DNA of 37,740 nt from a virus: positions 1 to 37,740 of the IMG/VR virus record IMGVR_UViG_3300024503_000118; one strand, 5' to 3'. Under the pieces are notes generated by a model. That model was not told the origin of the DNA. It did not search any database and saw only the letters and a list, made by a program, of their open reading frames with translations. Numbering within the stretch: the first letter of the stretch is position 1; every line of letters starts with the position of its first letter. Shown here one piece after another: positions 31,363-37,740 of this stretch. The position numbers and the translations under genes are program-made.

Positions 31363-33350
31363 TGAACGATGTTCGCGTCCGTGCCACCGGCAGGGTTGCC
31401 TGCGGCATCGGTCGTCGTCGGAGCGGGAGGCTGACCGCCTTGCATGGCCATCTGCGCCATCTGCTGCTCTTGCTGCTTGGCCATCTTGAACTTCAGCTCT
31501 TCGGGCGACGGCACGATCTTGTCGGTGTCCATCTGGAGCGCCTTGGCGTTCTCACGCAGCAAGTAAGCGCGACCCTCGGCTCCGATGATCTGGAGATCCA
31601 CCGGGTTGGCCGTAGCCGCCAGGAACTCGTTGCGACGGATCTGGAGCTGCTCGCGCATGACCAGACCCAGCGTGCCCTTGGCCACGACCTTGAAGTCGCC
31701 TTTGATGTACGGGTCGGGGTGGTACATCATGTTGTGGATGTACAGCCGGGTGACCACGCCGATCACAGCCTGGTCGCAAGCGGCGATCGCCTGCTTGATG
31801 CCCTTGCTCGCGTTGTCCATCAGCATCGACAGACCGGAGGCGGTGCGACCTGCACCAGCCACAGCACTAGAGCCGTAGACGTAGTTCGGGATCCCGGTGA
31901 TCTCGTCGGCCTGCCGCATGAACGTCATGTAGACGTTCATCAGCGACTCGGCATTCATGTTCGGCTGGAAGAACTTGATCGCCGGTTGTCCGCCGCCAGT
32001 GCGATCGGACGTGACCTGGAAGATCCGCCACGGGTGCATCGTGGTGACCTGCTCGCCATCGGCCAGTCGGTCAACCACCACCTCGGCCATCGGGCCAGAG
32101 GCCAGGCCCATGTTGTTCGCCAGCGAGCGAGCCGCCGCGTTACACATGACCTGCACGTCGCGCATGATCTCGGGCAGAGCCACGCCCCAGAACGAGCCGG
32201 GGATCGACTCCCACTGGGCGATGTCGTACGGGCGATGGCCCAGGGGATCCGGGTTGACCACAGCCTTGATCACGTAGCTGCCCACGATCCAGGCGTTGAT
32301 CTCGTACTCCTTGTACGGATCCAAGCCGGTCATGCCCCATTCCATTAGGGTTTGACCGGATGCAGGGCCCCAGAACTCCAGGGCCTCGATCGTGTTGTCG
32401 CGGTACAGGCGGGAGTGCGGCTTGCCTTCCAGGTCGTCGCGCTGCTGGTCGCCGTACTCGTAGTAGCGCAGGCCGCGCTCGCCGTAGTGGTCGAGGGCGC
32501 GCTGGATGTTCTCGTCGCTGTAGCCCGGAACGCCAATCAGGTTCGACAGGCTCGAGCGGCGCAGACGGTGACGCTGGATCAGGTAGCCGTCGTTGGGCCC
32601 GGTCGAGTTGGGCGAGGGGAAGATGTCGAACGGAGAGACGCGCTCGGTCTCGCGGCTGAAATCGTTGACGACGATCGGGGTGTAGTCGGGGCCCCACTCC
32701 AGCCGCTTTTTCTTGCGGACGGTCGGGCCCTTGATGATCGACGTTGGGTAGGTGACGAAGTCGTCCAGGAACTCGTCATACGCCTTTGGCCAACCGCCCT
32801 GTGAGAGTTGGTCTTCAATGACTCCTTCGTGCCGATACGCAGCAGACTTCGCTTCTTCGCGCATCTTGACGATGATCTCGTCGTGTACTTCTTGCGACCG
32901 AACGCGGAAGGCTTCGGGGTGAATCATCGCGCCTTGAGCCAAGAACTCTTCAGCCTCGGCTCGCACCAGGTCAGCGATGGACGCCGCGACCTCGGGTGGC
33001 AGCTTAGGGTTTTCCGCAGGGTCAAGCGCGTACTGGCGATCGCCATTGGTGGTGGAGACGTCCTTGATCCAGCTCTTGGCTGCACGGCACTTGATGTCCG
33101 TGAGCATCATGTAGATGTCGGATCCGCCAGTGGATGCGATCTCGTTGGCCTTGTCCGGGTCGTACTCGCCGCGCCGTTGACGCTCACAACGCAAAAGCCG
33201 ATCGGTGATCGGCATCTTGGCAAACTTGGCGCGAGACCAAGCGTCGTTGATGTGGCGAGCTAGCGCCGATTCGATCAGATCGGAGTTAGGGATTTCCCCA
33301 CCCACCTCTGCGCTGACATCGGCCTCCACCGGAGGTACGGCTTGATACAT
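31359..33350 (-). CDS. Portal protein
   Basis: The 663-residue portal has the length typical of podovirus portals. Key segments are ERQRRGEYDPDK near 55-66, SDIYMMLTDIKCRAAKSWI near 75-93, SPFDIFPSP near 235, PGSFWGVALPEIMRDVQ near 380-396, and a Gln/Met-rich C-terminal tail (KMAKQQEQQMAQMAM). It forms the dodecameric DNA channel at the capsid vertex and binds terminase. It lies three bases after terL and overlaps the next gene by four bases. The C-terminal coil after 600 probably forms the barrel/crown region (inference). Confidence 0.93.
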   Translation of the reverse strand: MYQAVPPVEADVSAEVGGEIPNSDLIESALARHINDAWSRAKFAKMPITDRLLRCERQRRGEYDPDKANEIASTGGSDIYMMLTDIKCRAAKSWIKDVSTTNGDRQYALDPAENPKLPPEVAASIADLVRAEAEEFLAQGAMIHPEAFRVRSQEVHDEIIVKMREEAKSAAYRHEGVIEDQLSQGGWPKAYDEFLDDFVTYPTSIIKGPTVRKKKRLEWGPDYTPIVVNDFSRETERVSPFDIFPSPNSTGPNDGYLIQRHRLRRSSLSNLIGVPGYSDENIQRALDHYGERGLRYYEYGDQQRDDLEGKPHSRLYRDNTIEALEFWGPASGQTLMEWGMTGLDPYKEYEINAWIVGSYVIKAVVNPDPLGHRPYDIAQWESIPGSFWGVALPEIMRDVQVMCNAAARSLANNMGLASGPMAEVVVDRLADGEQVTTMHPWRIFQVTSDRTGGGQPAIKFFQPNMNAESLMNVYMTFMRQADEITGIPNYVYGSSAVAGAGRTASGLSMLMDNASKGIKQAIAACDQAVIGVVTRLYIHNMMYHPDPYIKGDFKVVAKGTLGLVMREQLQIRRNEFLAATANPVDLQIIGAEGRAYLLRENAKALQMDTDKIVPSPEELKFKMAKQQEQQMAQMAMQGGQPPAPTTTDAAGNPAGGTDANIVQ

Positions 33351-33353
33351 GGC

Positions 33354-34790
33354 TTACGTCCATCCCTTTGCTGATGCTGTTCGCACGGGACGCGCCTTCG
33401 GCGTTTGGAACCCGTTGCGCACCTGCATACACAGGTACTGAAGCGCATCCATCGGATGCGAGAACTCATCTTTGACGGGGCGCTCGCGGTATCTGGCCGA
33501 GCCATTCGTCTTGATACGCTCGTAGCGATACCGGCCATTGAAGCCTCGTCTTAGGTTGGAGCATGACGGATCGAGCAGTAGGCCCGGGCCACCATCAACC
33601 ATCCGAGTGAGGAAGTACGCCACGGATTCCCGCCGTGGAATCCAGTCGTTGGTCGGAGCTGGCAGGGTTGGAATCCCCGCCTCGAGTAGCTCCTGGATGC
33701 AGGTGCGTTCGTCCACCTGGGAGCGGATCTGGCCTGCGGGGTCACCCATCGAATGACGCTGGAACCCGGCGTACTCGTTGGTCAGAATTGGTCGGACGAC
33801 GTCGTGCGTGAACTGCCGGATGCCCATGTCTTCGGAGATGATCTCCTTAAGGATCATGAGCTGGCCACGCGGCGTCATCTGGCCGATGATGCAGGCAGGG
33901 GTCAAACCAAAGTCCCAGCCCAACAGGATGGGCAGGCCGCGCACCGGTTCGAGCGGCTTCTCCGCCACATGCACCCGATCGTTCCACTCTGGGAAGACCG
34001 GCTTGCCGTCGGTGGTGGTGCCGTAGTTGCCAAGCAGGAAGACGTTGATCCACTGATCCTGTTTGCCTGCCAACTGGTTCAAGTAGTACTTGAAGCCGAA
34101 CGGCAGGTTGTCGATGTTCTCGGCGTCGGGGTTGGGTTCGTACTCGCCCTCGGGGTTGAGGAAGAGTCCGCCTGGCTGACGGAAGAACTGCCACTCCACG
34201 GGGCGCAGCACTTCCGCCGACTGGTAGTACCAGTGGTCGTCGTCTGGCGGGTTGGTGTCCAGGATCACGCCGCTCCAGGACGGGCCACCCTTGATCTTCG
34301 AGGGGTAGCGCCCGACACGCTGAGTCAGCATGTCGAAGACACCCTTGGGCACTTCGGACGCTTCGTTGATCCAGCCGCCTGTGAGTTCCAGCGATCGCAG
34401 CTTGCCGGTGTCCAGCTCGGAGTCCAGCGCCAGGAAGACGACCTCGAGCTCCAGGCTGGTGCCATCCCCGATGTCCGCGATCTTCATCGTGGAGGTGATC
34501 GGGGTGTCCCACTTCATCGGGGCGATGTTCTCCGGGAACCAGGTGTTCCAGGTCTTGATGGTCGTGGACTTGAGTTCGGGGTAGGTGTTGCGAACGACAG
34601 CCCAACGGGAGCGCCGCACACCATCCGTCCAGGGCTGTTGCGCCAGGGCACGGACAACGATCTCGACACAACAAGTCGAGGACTTCCCGGAGCCCACCGG
34701 CCCCATGAGTCCCCGAACAAAAGCGTCAGACTGGTGGAACGCCGCCGCAGCCTTCCCAGGTGGGCGGTAGTTGACGAACTCCTGACTCAC
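33354..34790 (-). CDS. terL: Large terminase subunit
   Basis: The 478-residue packaging motor has both expected domains. The ATPase carries Walker A at 30-38 (GPVGSGKSS) and a Walker B-like segment LTGGWINEA at 136-144 with catalytic Glu143, followed by LDTNPPD at 177-183. The RNase-H-like nuclease shows GWDFG with Asp293 and a C-terminal SHPMDALQYL motif typical of terminases. The GTG start overlaps the terS stop (GTGA), and GGAG-like sequence lies in the terS end. It binds the portal and cuts concatemers. Packaging type (cos, pac or direct terminal repeats) cannot be told from this gene alone. Confidence 0.96.
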   Translation of the reverse strand: MSQEFVNYRPPGKAAAAFHQSDAFVRGLMGPVGSGKSSTCCVEIVVRALAQQPWTDGVRRSRWAVVRNTYPELKSTTIKTWNTWFPENIAPMKWDTPITSTMKIADIGDGTSLELEVVFLALDSELDTGKLRSLELTGGWINEASEVPKGVFDMLTQRVGRYPSKIKGGPSWSGVILDTNPPDDDHWYYQSAEVLRPVEWQFFRQPGGLFLNPEGEYEPNPDAENIDNLPFGFKYYLNQLAGKQDQWINVFLLGNYGTTTDGKPVFPEWNDRVHVAEKPLEPVRGLPILLGWDFGLTPACIIGQMTPRGQLMILKEIISEDMGIRQFTHDVVRPILTNEYAGFQRHSMGDPAGQIRSQVDERTCIQELLEAGIPTLPAPTNDWIPRRESVAYFLTRMVDGGPGLLLDPSCSNLRRGFNGRYRYERIKTNGSARYRERPVKDEFSHPMDALQYLCMQVRNGFQTPKARPVRTASAKGWT

Positions 34791-35032
34791 TTCTTCTCGT
34801 CGTCGCCAAGCTTGGTGTTCAGGTTGAAGACAACCTGATTGCCTGTCATGTCCACCTTCACGTCGGACAGGTTGGGCAACGACTTATTGAGGAGCACTTC
34901 CGCCGCCCGGATCTGGGACGGCGACATCTGGTTCTTCCCCTCGACATGACCCATCAACCGAGACACAAGCACGGAGGCCTGGATCTTGGTGCGGATCTCT
35001 TCCTGATGGTTTTTGCGTAGACGAGCAGCCAC
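34787..35032 (-). CDS. terS: Small terminase subunit, GTG start
   Basis: The 81-residue protein reads (M)AARLRKNHQEEIRTKIQA, then LVSRLMGHVEG and MSPSQIRAAEVLLNKSLPNL. This matches the compact TerS pattern (an AARLRKNH-type start, then SPSQIRAAEILL) known from many phages. The GTG at 35032 is preceded by GGAG with 6-base spacing. The frame remains open to 35209, but that part is hairpin-rich leader and unlike TerS. TerS recognises the packaging start site, often located in or beside its own gene. Here a repeat array and hairpins lie directly upstream. Confidence 0.88.
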   Translation of the reverse strand: MAARLRKNHQEEIRTKIQASVLVSRLMGHVEGKNQMSPSQIRAAEVLLNKSLPNLSDVKVDMTGNQVVFNLNTKLGDDEKK

Positions 35033-35399
35033 GGTCAACTCCGATGGTGTTGCTAGGACATCGCGCCTGAGCGACTCGGGAGTCGCCCGAGACTCGATGC
35101 GATGGAACGCATTGTCACTGCTCGGAGATGACGCCCGGGAAGATGGTGGCAGGCCACCACACCTCTTCGGTCGAAGCCCTCGAGGTAGATGGTGGGTAAC
35201 GCCCACCACTCGGTCAGGTCACGCCACGAAGGAGTACGTCAACGCCCTGACTGGTTCCGTTGCTCGTCCGACGACCAATCGCACACAGGGCCGCTCAGTC
35301 GTCTTCCACGGTTTCCTGGGGCGAAGTCATCGTAGTGCGCCGTGAGAGTGTGCCGGGCTAGGGTGAACCCCAATGAAGGCTGGCACAGACCTTGCGTAT
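35033..35399 (-). promoter_or_regulatory. Palindrome-rich non-coding leader of the late operon
   Basis: There is no convincing gene here. Within 35071-35208 at least five inverted repeats occur. GCGACTC/GAGTCGC (35071-35086) competes with CTCGGG/CCCGAG (35075-35091). TGGTGGC/GCCACCA (35144-35159), CTTCG/CGAAG (35165-35176), the palindrome CCTCGAGG (35178-35185) and TGGTGGG/CCCACCA (35190-35208) follow. The two TGGTGG hairpins each begin with AGATGGT (35141, 35187), the reverse complement of the ACCATCT core of the neighbouring repeat array. Likely roles are late-transcript leader control or terminase recognition (inference). Bases 35210-35399 show nothing further that I can name. Confidence 0.6.
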
Positions 35400-35617
35400 T
35401 TACTATAGATGGATAACCATCTTTAGGTACATCATCTTTAGGTAACCATCTTTAGGTTATCCATCTAGAACATCAATAACCAAAGAATCTGTTTACCATC
35501 TATAGATGTCTACCATCTTAGACATCCACCTAAAACAAACACTATAGACAACCATCTCTAGGAACAGATGTACAGATGGTTGTCCATCTTTAGGTTATCC
35601 CTCTGTAGGTACCATCT
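35400..35617. repeat. AT-rich array of ACCATCTTTAGGT-type repeats
   Basis: The AT-rich tract holds direct copies of a roughly 14-15-bp unit (ACCATCTTTAGGTA) starting at 35416, 35431, 35445 and 35460, with variants at 35495, 35512, 35551, 35583, 35597 and 35611. Inverted copies lie at 35407 (AGATGGA) and 35574 (AGATGGT). Within it are an 11-bp inverted repeat GACAACCATCT/AGATGGTTGTC (35547-35557/35574-35584), GATGTCT/AGACATC, and a palindrome CATCTATAGATG (35497-35508). The array sits upstream of terS and its last units run into the 3' end of the 92-residue gene. Candidate roles: terminase binding (cosB/pac-like), replication origin iterons, or activator sites for the late promoter. A TATAGT on the minus strand at 35401-35406 could be a -10 element. 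Confidence 0.85.
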
Positions 35618-35873
35618 GTTGGCGAGCCGCCTTCTCAAAGCTCTGAAGGATCGACTTCACCAGGAGCAGCAAGTCTTCGCCTGAGTCGAAGTGCGTCAGG
35701 TTCACCTCCGTCTCCCAGACGTGGTACTCGCCGTGGATGTTGACGGCACCCTCAATGACGACTACGTGCGGCGCAAGAGCACCACGTAGCTCGTTCGCAT
35801 GGCGAACATTCACTCCGGCGAGTGGTTCGAACTGGCGGAGGAAGTTCTGAAGCTCATGTGCCTGAAGGTTCAC
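35595..35873 (-). CDS. Small unknown protein, GTG start, at the head of the leftward unit
   Basis: The 92-residue protein reads (M)NLQAHELQNFLRQFEPLAG, then VVVIEGAVNIHGEYHVWETE and a helical end LLLLVKSILQSFEKAARQQ. The GTG at 35873 has a strong AGGAG seven bases upstream. Longer in-frame starts (35939, 35972) lack a Shine-Dalgarno. Its last codons (QMVPTEG and stop) are written in units of the repeat array, so array and gene overlap. It is separated from terS by more than 550 bases, so it may be transcribed separately. Function unknown. Confidence 0.72.
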   Translation of the reverse strand: MNLQAHELQNFLRQFEPLAGVNVRHANELRGALAPHVVVIEGAVNIHGEYHVWETEVNLTHFDSGEDLLLLVKSILQSFEKAARQQMVPTEG

Positions 35874-36378
35874 AGTGGTTCTCCTGTTGATTGGCTGGCC
35901 TATGGCGGCGATTTTGACGGGTGGATGGTACTCGGACATCAACCGGCTCGGAAAAAACGCTTGTAGGGCCAAATAAACGGTCGGCGGAGAGGCTCAACAC
36001 CCCCGGTAGGCGATCGGCTATGCCCAAGTAGGGGACTCGTGTTTGCGATGGCTCTAGTACTGGAGTCCTCATACCCCCGTACTGCCACGATGGTGCCCAT
36101 CGGTGGTACCGGATGACTGCCAACAGTCCTGGACTGCACAGAGCGGATCAGTAATCCGCAGAGGTTCTAGTGGTGACAACCACTTAGCTCACCACTGTGC
36201 AGTAAATGTGCAGCGAGATGGAGTCCGTAGCGCCTCTTTCGAGGCTACGGCCTCCCCTCTTGAGTGTGTTTTCAGGGTTAACCCTATGTCGATAGGTGCC
36301 CTGAACGCCAAATGTCGTCCGTACGGCCATTTGACGACACTCATCTCGTTGTTTCCTAAATAACTTTGGAGTCTGACC
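35874..36378. promoter_or_regulatory. Divergent intergenic region with nested, mutually exclusive palindromes
   Basis: No gene is supported here. Inverted repeats are packed into 36124-36339. They are CAGTCC/GGACTG (36124-36136), an outer 9-bp stem ACTGCACAG/CTGTGCAGT (36133-36141/36195-36203) enclosing GCGGAT/ATCCGC (36143-36159) and AGTGGT/ACCACT (36169-36184), and an alternative AGTGGTGA/TCACCACT (36169-36176/36189-36196). Further on are a bulged 10-bp hairpin with UUUC loop (36225-36250), AGGGTTAACCCT (36274-36285) and TGTCGTC/GACGACA (36313-36339). The region separates leftward and rightward genes, so operators, a bidirectional promoter, an origin or a structured RNA are all possible. 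I could not place convincing -35/-10 pairs. Confidence 0.65.
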
Positions 36379-36636
36379 ATGTCCACTGTTCCCACCTACC
36401 GTTATATGTCTGTTGCACATCTATGCACAGCAGTCAGCGACTGCATCACCAAGCCGTTCGATAAAGAACAACACCGTTCACTTGGCAGCGCCATTGACGA
36501 CATGCTCTTCCGCTCAATCATGGAGGATCGTCGCGATGACGAGATCAACCTTCGCTTCGCCAAGGCCAACCTCACCGACTGGGCCTGTGCCTACCTCCTG
36601 GGCCTCTGCAAGGATCTGGAGGCTCGCCATGCGTGA
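36379..36636 (+). CDS. Small early-type protein, unknown
   Basis: The 85-residue protein reads MSTVPTYRYMSVAHLCTAV, then FDKEQHRSLGSAIDDMLFRS and LTDWACAYLLGLCKDLEARH. It is the first rightward gene after the divergent region, with GGAG about 7 bases upstream of the ATG. It is helical, has no membrane span and is unrecognised. The last codons overlap the start of a 29-residue membrane peptide gene. Confidence 0.75.
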   Translation: MSTVPTYRYMSVAHLCTAVSDCITKPFDKEQHRSLGSAIDDMLFRSIMEDRRDDEINLRFAKANLTDWACAYLLGLCKDLEARHA

Positions 36637-36718
36637 CTTCCTCATCAAGCTGATCCTCAACCTGCTGGGCATGTCTGTGTTCGCCTTCCTGGGCGTTCTG
36701 CTGGCCTGGAGGTTCTGA
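36629..36718 (+). CDS. 29-residue single-span membrane peptide
   Basis: The ATG at 36629 lies inside the end of the preceding gene (8-base overlap, different frame) and follows GGAGG at a good distance. The product MRDFLIKLILNLLGMSVFAF plus nine more residues is one transmembrane helix with a charged N-terminus and a WRF end. Tight overlap and Shine-Dalgarno support expression. Tiny phage membrane peptides can act in lysis control, exclusion or host takeover, but no specific role can be claimed. Confidence 0.65.
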   Translation: MRDFLIKLILNLLGMSVFAFLGVLLAWRF

Positions 36719-36721
36719 TCC

Positions 36722-36743
36722 AAGGGGTGGTTCGCCACCTCTT
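36722..36743 (+). promoter_or_regulatory. UUCG-loop hairpin after the rightward gene pair
   Basis: AAGGGGTGG (36722-36730), a TTCG loop and CCACCTCTT (36735-36743) form a 9-bp stem with one G-T pair, directly after the stop at 36716-36718. It lies just upstream of a true terminator and may stabilise the transcript 3' end or pause polymerase. Confidence 0.6.
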
Positions 36744-36756
36744 GTGCCTTCGTTCA

Positions 36757-36812
36757 CCGACGTTCGTCGGCCCCCTCCTCTCTTACGAGAGGGGGCCTCC
36801 TCTCTTTTTGTT
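36757..36812 (+). terminator. Strong rho-independent terminator
   Basis: GGCCCCCTC (36769-36777) pairs with GAGGGGGCC (36789-36797), followed by TCCTCTCTTTTTGTTT. A smaller hairpin CCGACG-TT-CGTCGG (36757-36770) adjoins it. A long GC stem followed by a T-run on the plus strand ends the transcript of the two preceding rightward genes. Confidence 0.88.
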
Positions 36813-36877
36813 TCTGTTTCCAGGCTCCGCTGAGCCGCTGCTTCCCTTCAACCACCCTTTGATCCAAGGAGATCGCC

Positions 36878-37258
36878 ATGACTGCTGCCAACACCATCAC
36901 TGCTTCCGTCGTGTCCAACACCAAGCCCACCGAGGCTCAGTTGAACCGACTCCAGACCCTGAACTACACGGGTGACATCCCTCAGTCCCGTGCTGAGGTG
37001 AGCCGCCTGATCAGCACGCTGATCGCCAACCGTGACATGCAACCGGCCACTGCCAAGCAGTTGGGTCGGGCTGGTGTGCTCGGTGGTCGTGATCTCCCTG
37101 GCGCGGGTGTCCGCGAGGTGAGCAGCCAGATTGCGCTGCTCGAGGCCCTGATCATCTTCGAGACTGCGTCCGAGGAGGACAAGGCCGAAGCTGCCAAGGG
37201 AATGGCTGAAGCGATCCGCCAGCGGTTCGTCAAGCAGGGCATCGTCTACGCCAGCTAA
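36878..37258 (+). CDS. Unknown soluble protein of the rightward unit
   Basis: The 126-residue protein starts MTAANTITASVVSNTKPTEA and contains LNRLQTLNYTGDIPQSRAEV and SRLISTLIANRD. Its C-terminal half is helical and charged (SEEDKAEAAKGMAEAIRQRF). A strong AAGGAG sits 5-6 bases before the ATG. It follows a terminator, so it should have its own promoter within 36813-36870, though I cannot identify one. The N-terminal phrase recalls small phage proteins that recognise nucleic acid or topology-related partners, but no family can be named. The C-terminus ends GIVYAS. Confidence 0.75.
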   Translation: MTAANTITASVVSNTKPTEAQLNRLQTLNYTGDIPQSRAEVSRLISTLIANRDMQPATAKQLGRAGVLGGRDLPGAGVREVSSQIALLEALIIFETASEEDKAEAAKGMAEAIRQRFVKQGIVYAS

Positions 37259-37270
37259 GTAGACAACGCA

Positions 37271-37302
37271 GGGGCGGGGAGGCCGAGAGGCCGACCTGCC
37301 CC
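37271..37302 (+). terminator. GC-rich hairpin, weak terminator or attenuator
   Basis: GGGGCGGG (37271-37278) pairs with CCTGCCCC (37295-37302) with one G-T pair, enclosing GGCC-GAGA-GGCC. It directly follows the 126-residue gene. It lacks a T-run (GTGTTACC follows), so termination would be inefficient at best, and it may instead regulate read-through to the next genes. Confidence 0.45.
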
Positions 37303-37350
37303 GTGTTACCCCCAATCCACTCACGGATCGAGATTTACCCGGAGCAACAC

Positions 37351-37491
37351 ATGCACTACGACTTCGCTCTCGCCGCCTACGAGGAGGCCAGGTTCTGCAC
37401 CAAACGCTACCAGTCAGACCTGTACTGGCGTCTGAGAAAAAAGGTGGATCCCGAGTGGTACGAGCTGTTCAACATGGGCTGCGAGCTGTAG
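37351..37491 (+). CDS. Short unknown protein (46 residues)
   Basis: The 46-residue protein (MHYDFALAAYEEARFCTKRY, then QSDLYWRLRKKVDPEWYELF) starts at an ATG preceded by GGAGCAACAC. A farther upstream start exists at 37303 but has no ribosome-binding site. The next gene begins 13 bases after its stop and has almost the same leader (AGGAGCAACAC), which suggests a shared translation signal. Charged, aromatic-rich, unrecognised. Confidence 0.7.
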   Translation: MHYDFALAAYEEARFCTKRYQSDLYWRLRKKVDPEWYELFNMGCEL

Positions 37492-37504
37492 CCAGGAGCA
37501 ACAC

Positions 37505-37740
37505 ATGAGCACACAACCCGAAGCCCTGCGCTTGGCTAACGCGCTGGAGAAGTATTGGGGTGCAGAGAGAGGTCATGACCGAGAACGACAAGCCGCCGCC
37601 GAACTGCGCCGCCTTCATGCGGTGAATGAGGAACTGTTGGAGGCGTTGGAAGAACTGGCGTTGTACATCGCTCACAACGGTGACGACTGGGTACAGAAGA
37701 AAGCCCGCGCAGCCATCGCAAAGGCTACAGGAGAGCAAGC
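37505..37740 (+). CDS. Ea22-like early phage protein, partial
   Basis: The gene is open to the right edge; 78 residues plus one partial codon are visible. The N-terminus MSTQPEALRLANALEKYWGA and later ELRRLHAVNEELLEALEELA and ARAAIAKATGEQ match a very common phage/prophage pattern likened to the Ea22 family. It is a helical early-region protein whose function is not well defined. AGGAG lies 7-8 bases before the ATG. Confidence 0.8.
   Translation, partial: MSTQPEALRLANALEKYWGAERGHDRERQAAAELRRLHAVNEELLEALEELALYIAHNGDDWVQKKARAAIAKATGEQ

Follow-up and report, generated by a model that had tools for sequence, protein, structure and literature searches.

A lineage-variable palindromic repeat array adjoins a sigma54-like site upstream of the terminase genes in a group of related phages

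In a 37.7-kb viral genome fragment from IMG/VR (37,740 nt, analyzed over its whole length and referred to here as the window), an over-represented, multi-copy repeat array heads the terminase operon. Judged from comparison with related phages, it is a cis site whose position, self-complementarity and sigma54-like neighbor persist while its sequence turns over. These features suggest regulation or the start of replication more than DNA packaging, and among the explanations weighed below we favor an operator or enhancer array, followed by a replication origin and, third, a role at the RNA level.

The array occupies an AT-rich stretch at 35403..35623 and is built from imperfect, largely palindromic units (ACCATCTTTAGGT; CCTAAAGATGGTTA on the other strand), a diverged form of which is kept in L004, the nearest array-bearing relative. 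The exact unit ACCATCTTTAGGT occurs twice on the plus strand (35416..35428 and 35445..35457), accompanied on that strand by units with one mismatch (35431..35443 and 35583..35595), two mismatches (35495..35507 and 35551..35563) or three mismatches (35598..35610 and 35611..35623). An inverted unit with three mismatches lies on the minus strand (35568..35580), which bears out the two orientations noted in a preliminary description of this DNA. That description had also given an 11-bp inverted repeat; the actual perfect repeat measures 13 bp, with arms at 35406-35418 and 35455-35467 (35406..35467 overall). The spacing of 14–15 bp it had proposed holds within the local runs 35416/35431/35445 and 35583/35598 but not elsewhere (the step to 35611 is 13 bp). 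At the center of the array, a hairpin with an 8-bp stem and a 6-nt loop spans 35505..35526; by eye, its stem is longer in L004.

An exact count confirmed nine copies of the core ACCATCT/AGATGGT between 35141 and 35617, as well as their excess over chance: the window contains 18 copies, compared with a mean of 4.17 and a largest value of 10 in shuffled sequence. As a stricter control, we shuffled only the AT-rich tract (35400-35620), whose GC content of 36%, compared with 59% for the window, agrees with its earlier description as an AT-rich tract in a GC-rich genome. Its 221 bp hold 7 exact cores (mean 0.09 and maximum 2 in 2000 shuffled tracts) and 6 matches to the 13-mer with up to two mismatches (mean 0.013 in tract shuffles). 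Two copies, at 35141 and 35187, fall beyond the tract and, by eye, are absent from L004; we therefore treat them as chance occurrences.

As originally placed, the array precedes terS, whose probable start (35032) is 371 bp away. The large terminase subunit gene (TerL, phrog_2; 33354..34790, minus strand) encodes a protein 43–48% identical to those of the isolates Hodr, BcepC6B and MEP301, the other matches among 27 records being similar or lower. On the other side, the 3' end of ORF-A (35595..35873, minus strand), which encodes a conserved 92-aa protein, overlaps the array edge, and the first ORF of the oppositely oriented early block, recognized by comparison with relatives, lies at 36379..36636 (plus strand). 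The window's virus continues in contig L254, which matches L003 over 8139 bases at 99.99% identity and the window over 690 bases at 100%; L003 and the window share 4256 bases at 100%. In relatives of 56–60 kb, two divergent gene blocks meet in the neighborhood of the array, and one relative (G007) carries an exact 99-bp end repeat, the pattern expected from a circular assembly. The group looks temperate because the early block of G002 is closed by an integrase gene (phrog_1, E 2.5e-60), a 52% relative of which is present in G001. No near-DNA match to positions 33000-37740 was found among isolate phages. Two further elements of the region were observed. The early block of these phages holds a well-conserved pair of genes, in G002 at 33944-36299 (minus strand), for a class II glutamine-amidotransferase-like protein (MCLLV.., named by eye) and a 446-aa neighbor. 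In the window, three nested inverted repeats at 36120-36209 (minus strand; TGCACAG..CTGTGCA, GTGGTGA..TCACCAC and GCGGAT..ATCCGC) have the appearance of a three-way-junction RNA, mostly retained in L004 by eye.

To follow the array across related phages, we scanned 75 TerL relatives for repeated 8-mers and counted a score of 9 or more as a peak. This set comprised 80 TerL loci minus seven (duplicates or loci without usable upstream sequence) plus L003 and L004; 53 of the 75 passed a length and identity filter (enough upstream sequence, and not identical there). L002 and L003 represent the window's own virus, and L049, L053, L054 and L055 are mutually close. A peak was present in 23 of the 25 relatives with a TerL identity of at least 75%, compared with 2 of 28 below 75%, and in those 23 it starts 0.8–1.9 kb before terL. 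The search in related phages that the preliminary description had proposed thus recovered the place of the array but not its motif, which is lineage-specific: the repeated word is ACCTAAAGATGGT, ATACCGGTAT, AGATAACC, TGGTTACCA, ACGGTTATACGTA or another one, depending on the lineage. G002 and G004, for example, are 95% identical in TerL and 90% in ORF-A, yet their array similarity is 0.16. By eye, many units are palindromic around GGTTAACC or ACCGGT. Self-complementarity exceeded that of shuffled sequence on both strands in all 20 arrays tested (z −3.5 to −10, for 230-nt stretches, some of which take in part of ORF-A).

The array words are mostly restricted to the array, with a few copies elsewhere (two of ACGGTTA in G003, three of ATAGATG in G001 and one of AGATAACC in G002). 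Genome-wide stoperators were considered and set aside, the array words being mostly missing outside the array. The immunity operators, or stoperators, of cluster A mycobacteriophages are repressor sites in a group whose immunity specificity evolves (PMC6550527, PMC9283540). The likeness lies in proposed repressor sites of evolving specificity; stoperators are asymmetric and distributed over the genome, whereas the window's array is a single cluster of largely palindromic units. We also rejected an upstream palindrome, CCAG-N5-CTGG, as a general feature, as it is perfect in only 5 of 21 cases, two of them near-identical.

At the edge of the array, a short block is nearly invariant among relatives. 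Its other strand reads YTGGCAY-N5-YTGC, which we take to be the −24/−12 form of a sigma54 (RpoN) promoter. In the window this promoter-like site (CTGGCACAGACCTTGCG; 35380..35396, plus strand) points into the array and toward the early genes, with a putative transcription start near 35406. The pattern TGGCAY-N5-YTGC with exact spacing occurs in 23 of the 53 filtered relatives, all of them array-bearing: array and site are both present in 23, both missing in 28, and the array stands alone in 2 and the site alone in none, a table that does not amount to 53 independent trials because the relatives share common descent. About 0.24 sites would be expected by chance in all pieces together. A looser pattern finds a single site per record in G001-G005 and the window (six records), always at the array edge and in the same orientation. 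The invariance of the −24/−12 letters is partly by construction, since the search pattern fixed them; the base after the −24 half, which the pattern left open, is a purine (A or G) at all 23 sites (18 distinct). The array occurs without the site in L047, L077 (a weak array) and G007. The circular G007, whose sole loose-pattern match lies elsewhere and on the opposite strand, offers a natural test case of an array kept without a sigma54-like site at its edge.

The arrangement resembles sigma54 promoters in its YTGGCAY-N5-YTGC form, with 10 nt between GG and GC. It departs from them in that the repeats lie downstream rather than upstream and in that no sigma54-activator domain (AAA+, PF00158) was found in 12 phage records. 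A RpoN domain is present in both of two putative host genomes; the host link is only plausible, because it is based on two TerL relatives in bacterial assemblies. Bacterial genomes contain 24 TerL relatives, and no array was found at the two bacterial loci examined, a remnant in Sheuella and a Limnohabitans MAG. The former (L342, a contig of the freshwater isolate genome of Sheuella amnicola) is a prophage remnant whose TerL start is 74% identical, and constitutes a possible host lead. A partial search of literature titles returned none describing such an array or a sigma54-driven phage early promoter.

Our best explanation, held tentatively and as somewhat short of probable, is that the array serves as the operator or enhancer array of a sigma54-type early promoter in the phage control region. 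Under this explanation, host RpoN-RNA polymerase would initiate at about 35406, and a protein binding palindromic half-sites would fill several units together, from +1 to about +215. Once bound, it would either block the promoter, as a lysogeny-type repressor might in relatives with an integrase, or act as a downstream enhancer. Rapid turnover of the repeats at an unchanged position would then correspond to a switch of regulatory or immunity type, and the candidate reader of the repeats would be a helix-turn-helix (HTH) protein encoded in a fixed early-gene slot. Beyond the co-occurrence of array and site, we count in its favor that no sigma70-like promoter was found in 34980-36450, that the array words are mostly restricted to the array and that both putative host genomes contain RpoN. 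Against the promoter reading, the predicted transcript would have to cover about 1 kb, passing ORF-A in antisense, before it reached the first early gene.

The main rival, which we regard as possible though doubtful, is a replication origin, in which the units would be iterons for a phage initiator, the AT-rich DNA and central hairpin would form the opening or priming site, and the sigma54-like promoter would provide activating or priming transcription. Iteron origins such as plasmid iterons and lambda ori share with the array short repeats in AT-rich DNA, a hairpin and a single locus, and lineage-specific iterons are common among origins. In agreement with this, the array is a single AT-rich locus with few motif copies elsewhere, its units flank the hairpin on both sides in many lineages (by eye), and all 20 arrays tested are self-complementary. 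The GC skew of G007 and G002 flips sign at the array, but in the direction opposite to that of a usual origin and where the direction of transcription switches. Also against an origin, no match to a known initiator family emerged from the proteins scanned, G002 encodes a Toprim/DnaB-type helicase-primase, and the identity of the HTH slot protein, a possible cognate initiator, does not follow the array. Compared with iteron origins, the units here are palindromic, lie in both orientations and adjoin a sigma54-like site.

Self-complementarity across arrays of unlike sequence also bears on a third explanation, which we consider rather improbable: the array might be transcribed and its hairpins act in RNA or single strands, for instance by directing the processing of a transcript, stabilizing it or attenuating it in the stretch from ORF-A to the leader RNA and terS, selection acting on structure rather than on a protein-binding sequence. 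The fold z-scores on both strands and the covarying, terS-sense leader RNA directly downstream would agree with such a role. However, inverted repeats for a dimeric protein would yield the same z-scores, some of the folded stretches contain part of ORF-A, structure alone requires no exact repetition of a word within the array, and no terminator-like site was found in 34980-36450.

That leader RNA, a predicted structured element at 35191..35323 (minus strand), lies between the array and terS. Its assignment comes from homology to a covarying element of the relatives; the window's own copy has an insertion and is outside the 25-sequence alignment. The element includes a pseudoknot, and 16 of its 21 pairs show double changes among the 25 aligned relatives. 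Its covariation score of 0.502 was matched in none of 500 shuffles (0.172) and exceeds the values of up to 0.10 obtained by sliding the structure along the alignment, a control that favors the structure because it was drawn by eye on these very sequences. The weakest pairs are 8-27, 126-133 and 18-42, which fail in 18 of 23, 14 of 25 and 9 of 25 sequences, respectively. Ten G-U cells compared with two C-A cells place the RNA on the terS strand. Three loci found with the leader pattern (L096, L113 and L127) resemble the Rfam family Proteo-phage-1 (RF03044), at 27.9–29.8 bits and thus below the gathering score of 42; the window gave no match, and none of 11 loci reached the gathering level. The leader pattern matches at least 120 viral-contig stretches, some possibly by chance, and the RNA appears to be common among phages and prophages. 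In Pseudomonas phages, PAJU2 for example, it belongs to an early operon away from the terminase. Transfer RNA genes separate the leader RNA from terS in L024, L031, L036, L040 and L110; in L047 they immediately precede the array. We regard the leader RNA as separate from the array, because it occurs where no array was detected, namely in L022, L051, L058 and L084 and, by eye, in the Limnohabitans contig L322.

The array might alternatively hold multiple sites for an activator of the late operon, which runs in the terS direction, as the preliminary description had also suggested; this we judge unlikely. It does head the late block (leader RNA, tRNAs in some relatives, terS and terL), and no sigma70-like promoter was found in 34980-36450. 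The only promoter-like site found faces the other way, though, and the words are largely absent from the rest of the genome, unlike late activators, for which similar sites are usual at several late promoters.

The preliminary description had drawn a parallel with lambda cosB, whose R sites are bound by TerS. As far as could be tested on TerS, this reading is not supported. The small terminase-subunit-like protein, named for its place before terL, has 81 aa and a GTG start, and probably spans 34787-35032 (minus strand), because L004 and other relatives use this start. A 140-aa ORF is probably not the terS gene: L004 opens only from the 81-aa start, which other relatives share, and the longer frame begins within the last hairpin of the leader RNA. 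The TerS proteins of relatives start with MAAR(L/M)RKxHQ or a near form. Neither the window's 81-aa form nor the TerS of G002 gave a Pfam match at E up to 1, in a search by sequence profiles that a domain of an undescribed kind could escape. The co-variation of motif and TerS that the parallel had led us to look for did not emerge. G004 and G007 have TerS proteins 90% identical but an array similarity of 0.06, and across 13 genomes, with TerL removed, the partial correlation between array similarity and TerS was −0.02 (1074 of 2000 permutations as high). TerS was therefore rejected as the array reader, being short, without a Pfam match and without covariation. The likeness to cosB is thus confined to repeat sites close to terminase genes; here, TerS is an 81-aa protein with no DNA-binding domain detected, the motif shifts while TerS barely does, and a leader RNA intervenes.

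A terminase recognition site of the cosB or pac type, or an array flanking the genome ends as in phage T7, is accordingly the explanation to which we give the least weight, as very unlikely. In its favor, terS is nearby, and G004 and G008 fall together by TerS as well as by motif. The T7 end arrays, SRL and SRR, likewise contain CCTAAAG words, many 12–13 bp apart, and lie close to the genome ends. We rejected a T7-like end array, as the exact CCTAAAG-containing unit is confined to the window's lineage and gene content and place differ from T7. Assembled contigs traverse the array region, as they also would with a collapsed terminal repeat.

For the operator or enhancer array that we favor, the candidate reader is the HTH protein mentioned above, whose gene adjoins a nuclease-like gene in a fixed slot of the early block (for the window's virus, 11613-11951 of L254, minus strand); G002, G004, G007, G008 and other relatives also encode it. 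In 27 of 28 pairs from eight genomes, it had the lowest identity among the proteins compared. Between L254 and G001 it is 50% identical, compared with 93% and 89% for its neighbors; it is not the sole fast-changing protein, since two nearby small ORFs stand at 41% and 58% in the same pair. Of 30 loci that have the nuclease-like gene, 15 encode a slot protein ending in a C-terminal tail like SLWQRIKDFF; the remaining 15, where no tailed HTH protein was found, comprise three loci of the window's lineage, two truncated ones and ten of more distant relationship. This conserved tail resembles, by eye, amphipathic membrane-targeting tails. The slot protein of the window's lineage has no such tail and is predicted to form a three-helix domain. 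Structural models of slot proteins, all of three helices, had low overall confidence (mean pLDDT 66 and 68), and their Foldseek matches were weak (best E 0.2), mostly to HTH proteins by title.

G008 has the motif of G004, as the HTH grouping predicts, whereas by TerL and the amidotransferase-like gene G004 is nearer to G002. This expectation had not been recorded before the G008 array was inspected, and the agreement is not specific to the HTH protein, because the TerS, nuclease-like and HicA-like genes group likewise. In a Mantel test on the 13 genomes with both array and slot sequences (G005, with a weak array and without the nuclease-like gene, was excluded), array similarity did not correlate with HTH identity (rho 0.09, 1313 of 2000 permutations as high; partial −0.05 given TerL), in a test weakened by the saturation of HTH identity near 25–30%. 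ORF-A and the other genes compared likewise showed no correlation with array similarity in the 13 genomes once TerL was removed. G003 and L032 have motifs in common (0.72), with HTH proteins 26% identical. We therefore rejected the HTH protein as a proven reader, the single agreeing case having failed the general test, and retain it as a candidate only.

More speculatively, and with considerable doubt, temperate freshwater phages of this kind may use a single host-sigma54 promoter for their early genes and, downstream of it, a palindromic operator array whose sequence type switches between close genomes (such as G002 and G004), which would make immunity or regulation groups while the promoter stays unchanged. 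If the promoter reading is true, the phage control region would be tied to host sigma54, which is linked to nitrogen, motility and stress programs, and its operator array would be one that switches type rapidly; these phages would provide a natural series of matched arrays for studying how phage regulatory specificity switches. If the array is an origin instead, the freshwater group would have a placed, fast-evolving iteron system. Either way, the promoter-like site and the leader RNA, rather than the terminase, become the focus of attention.
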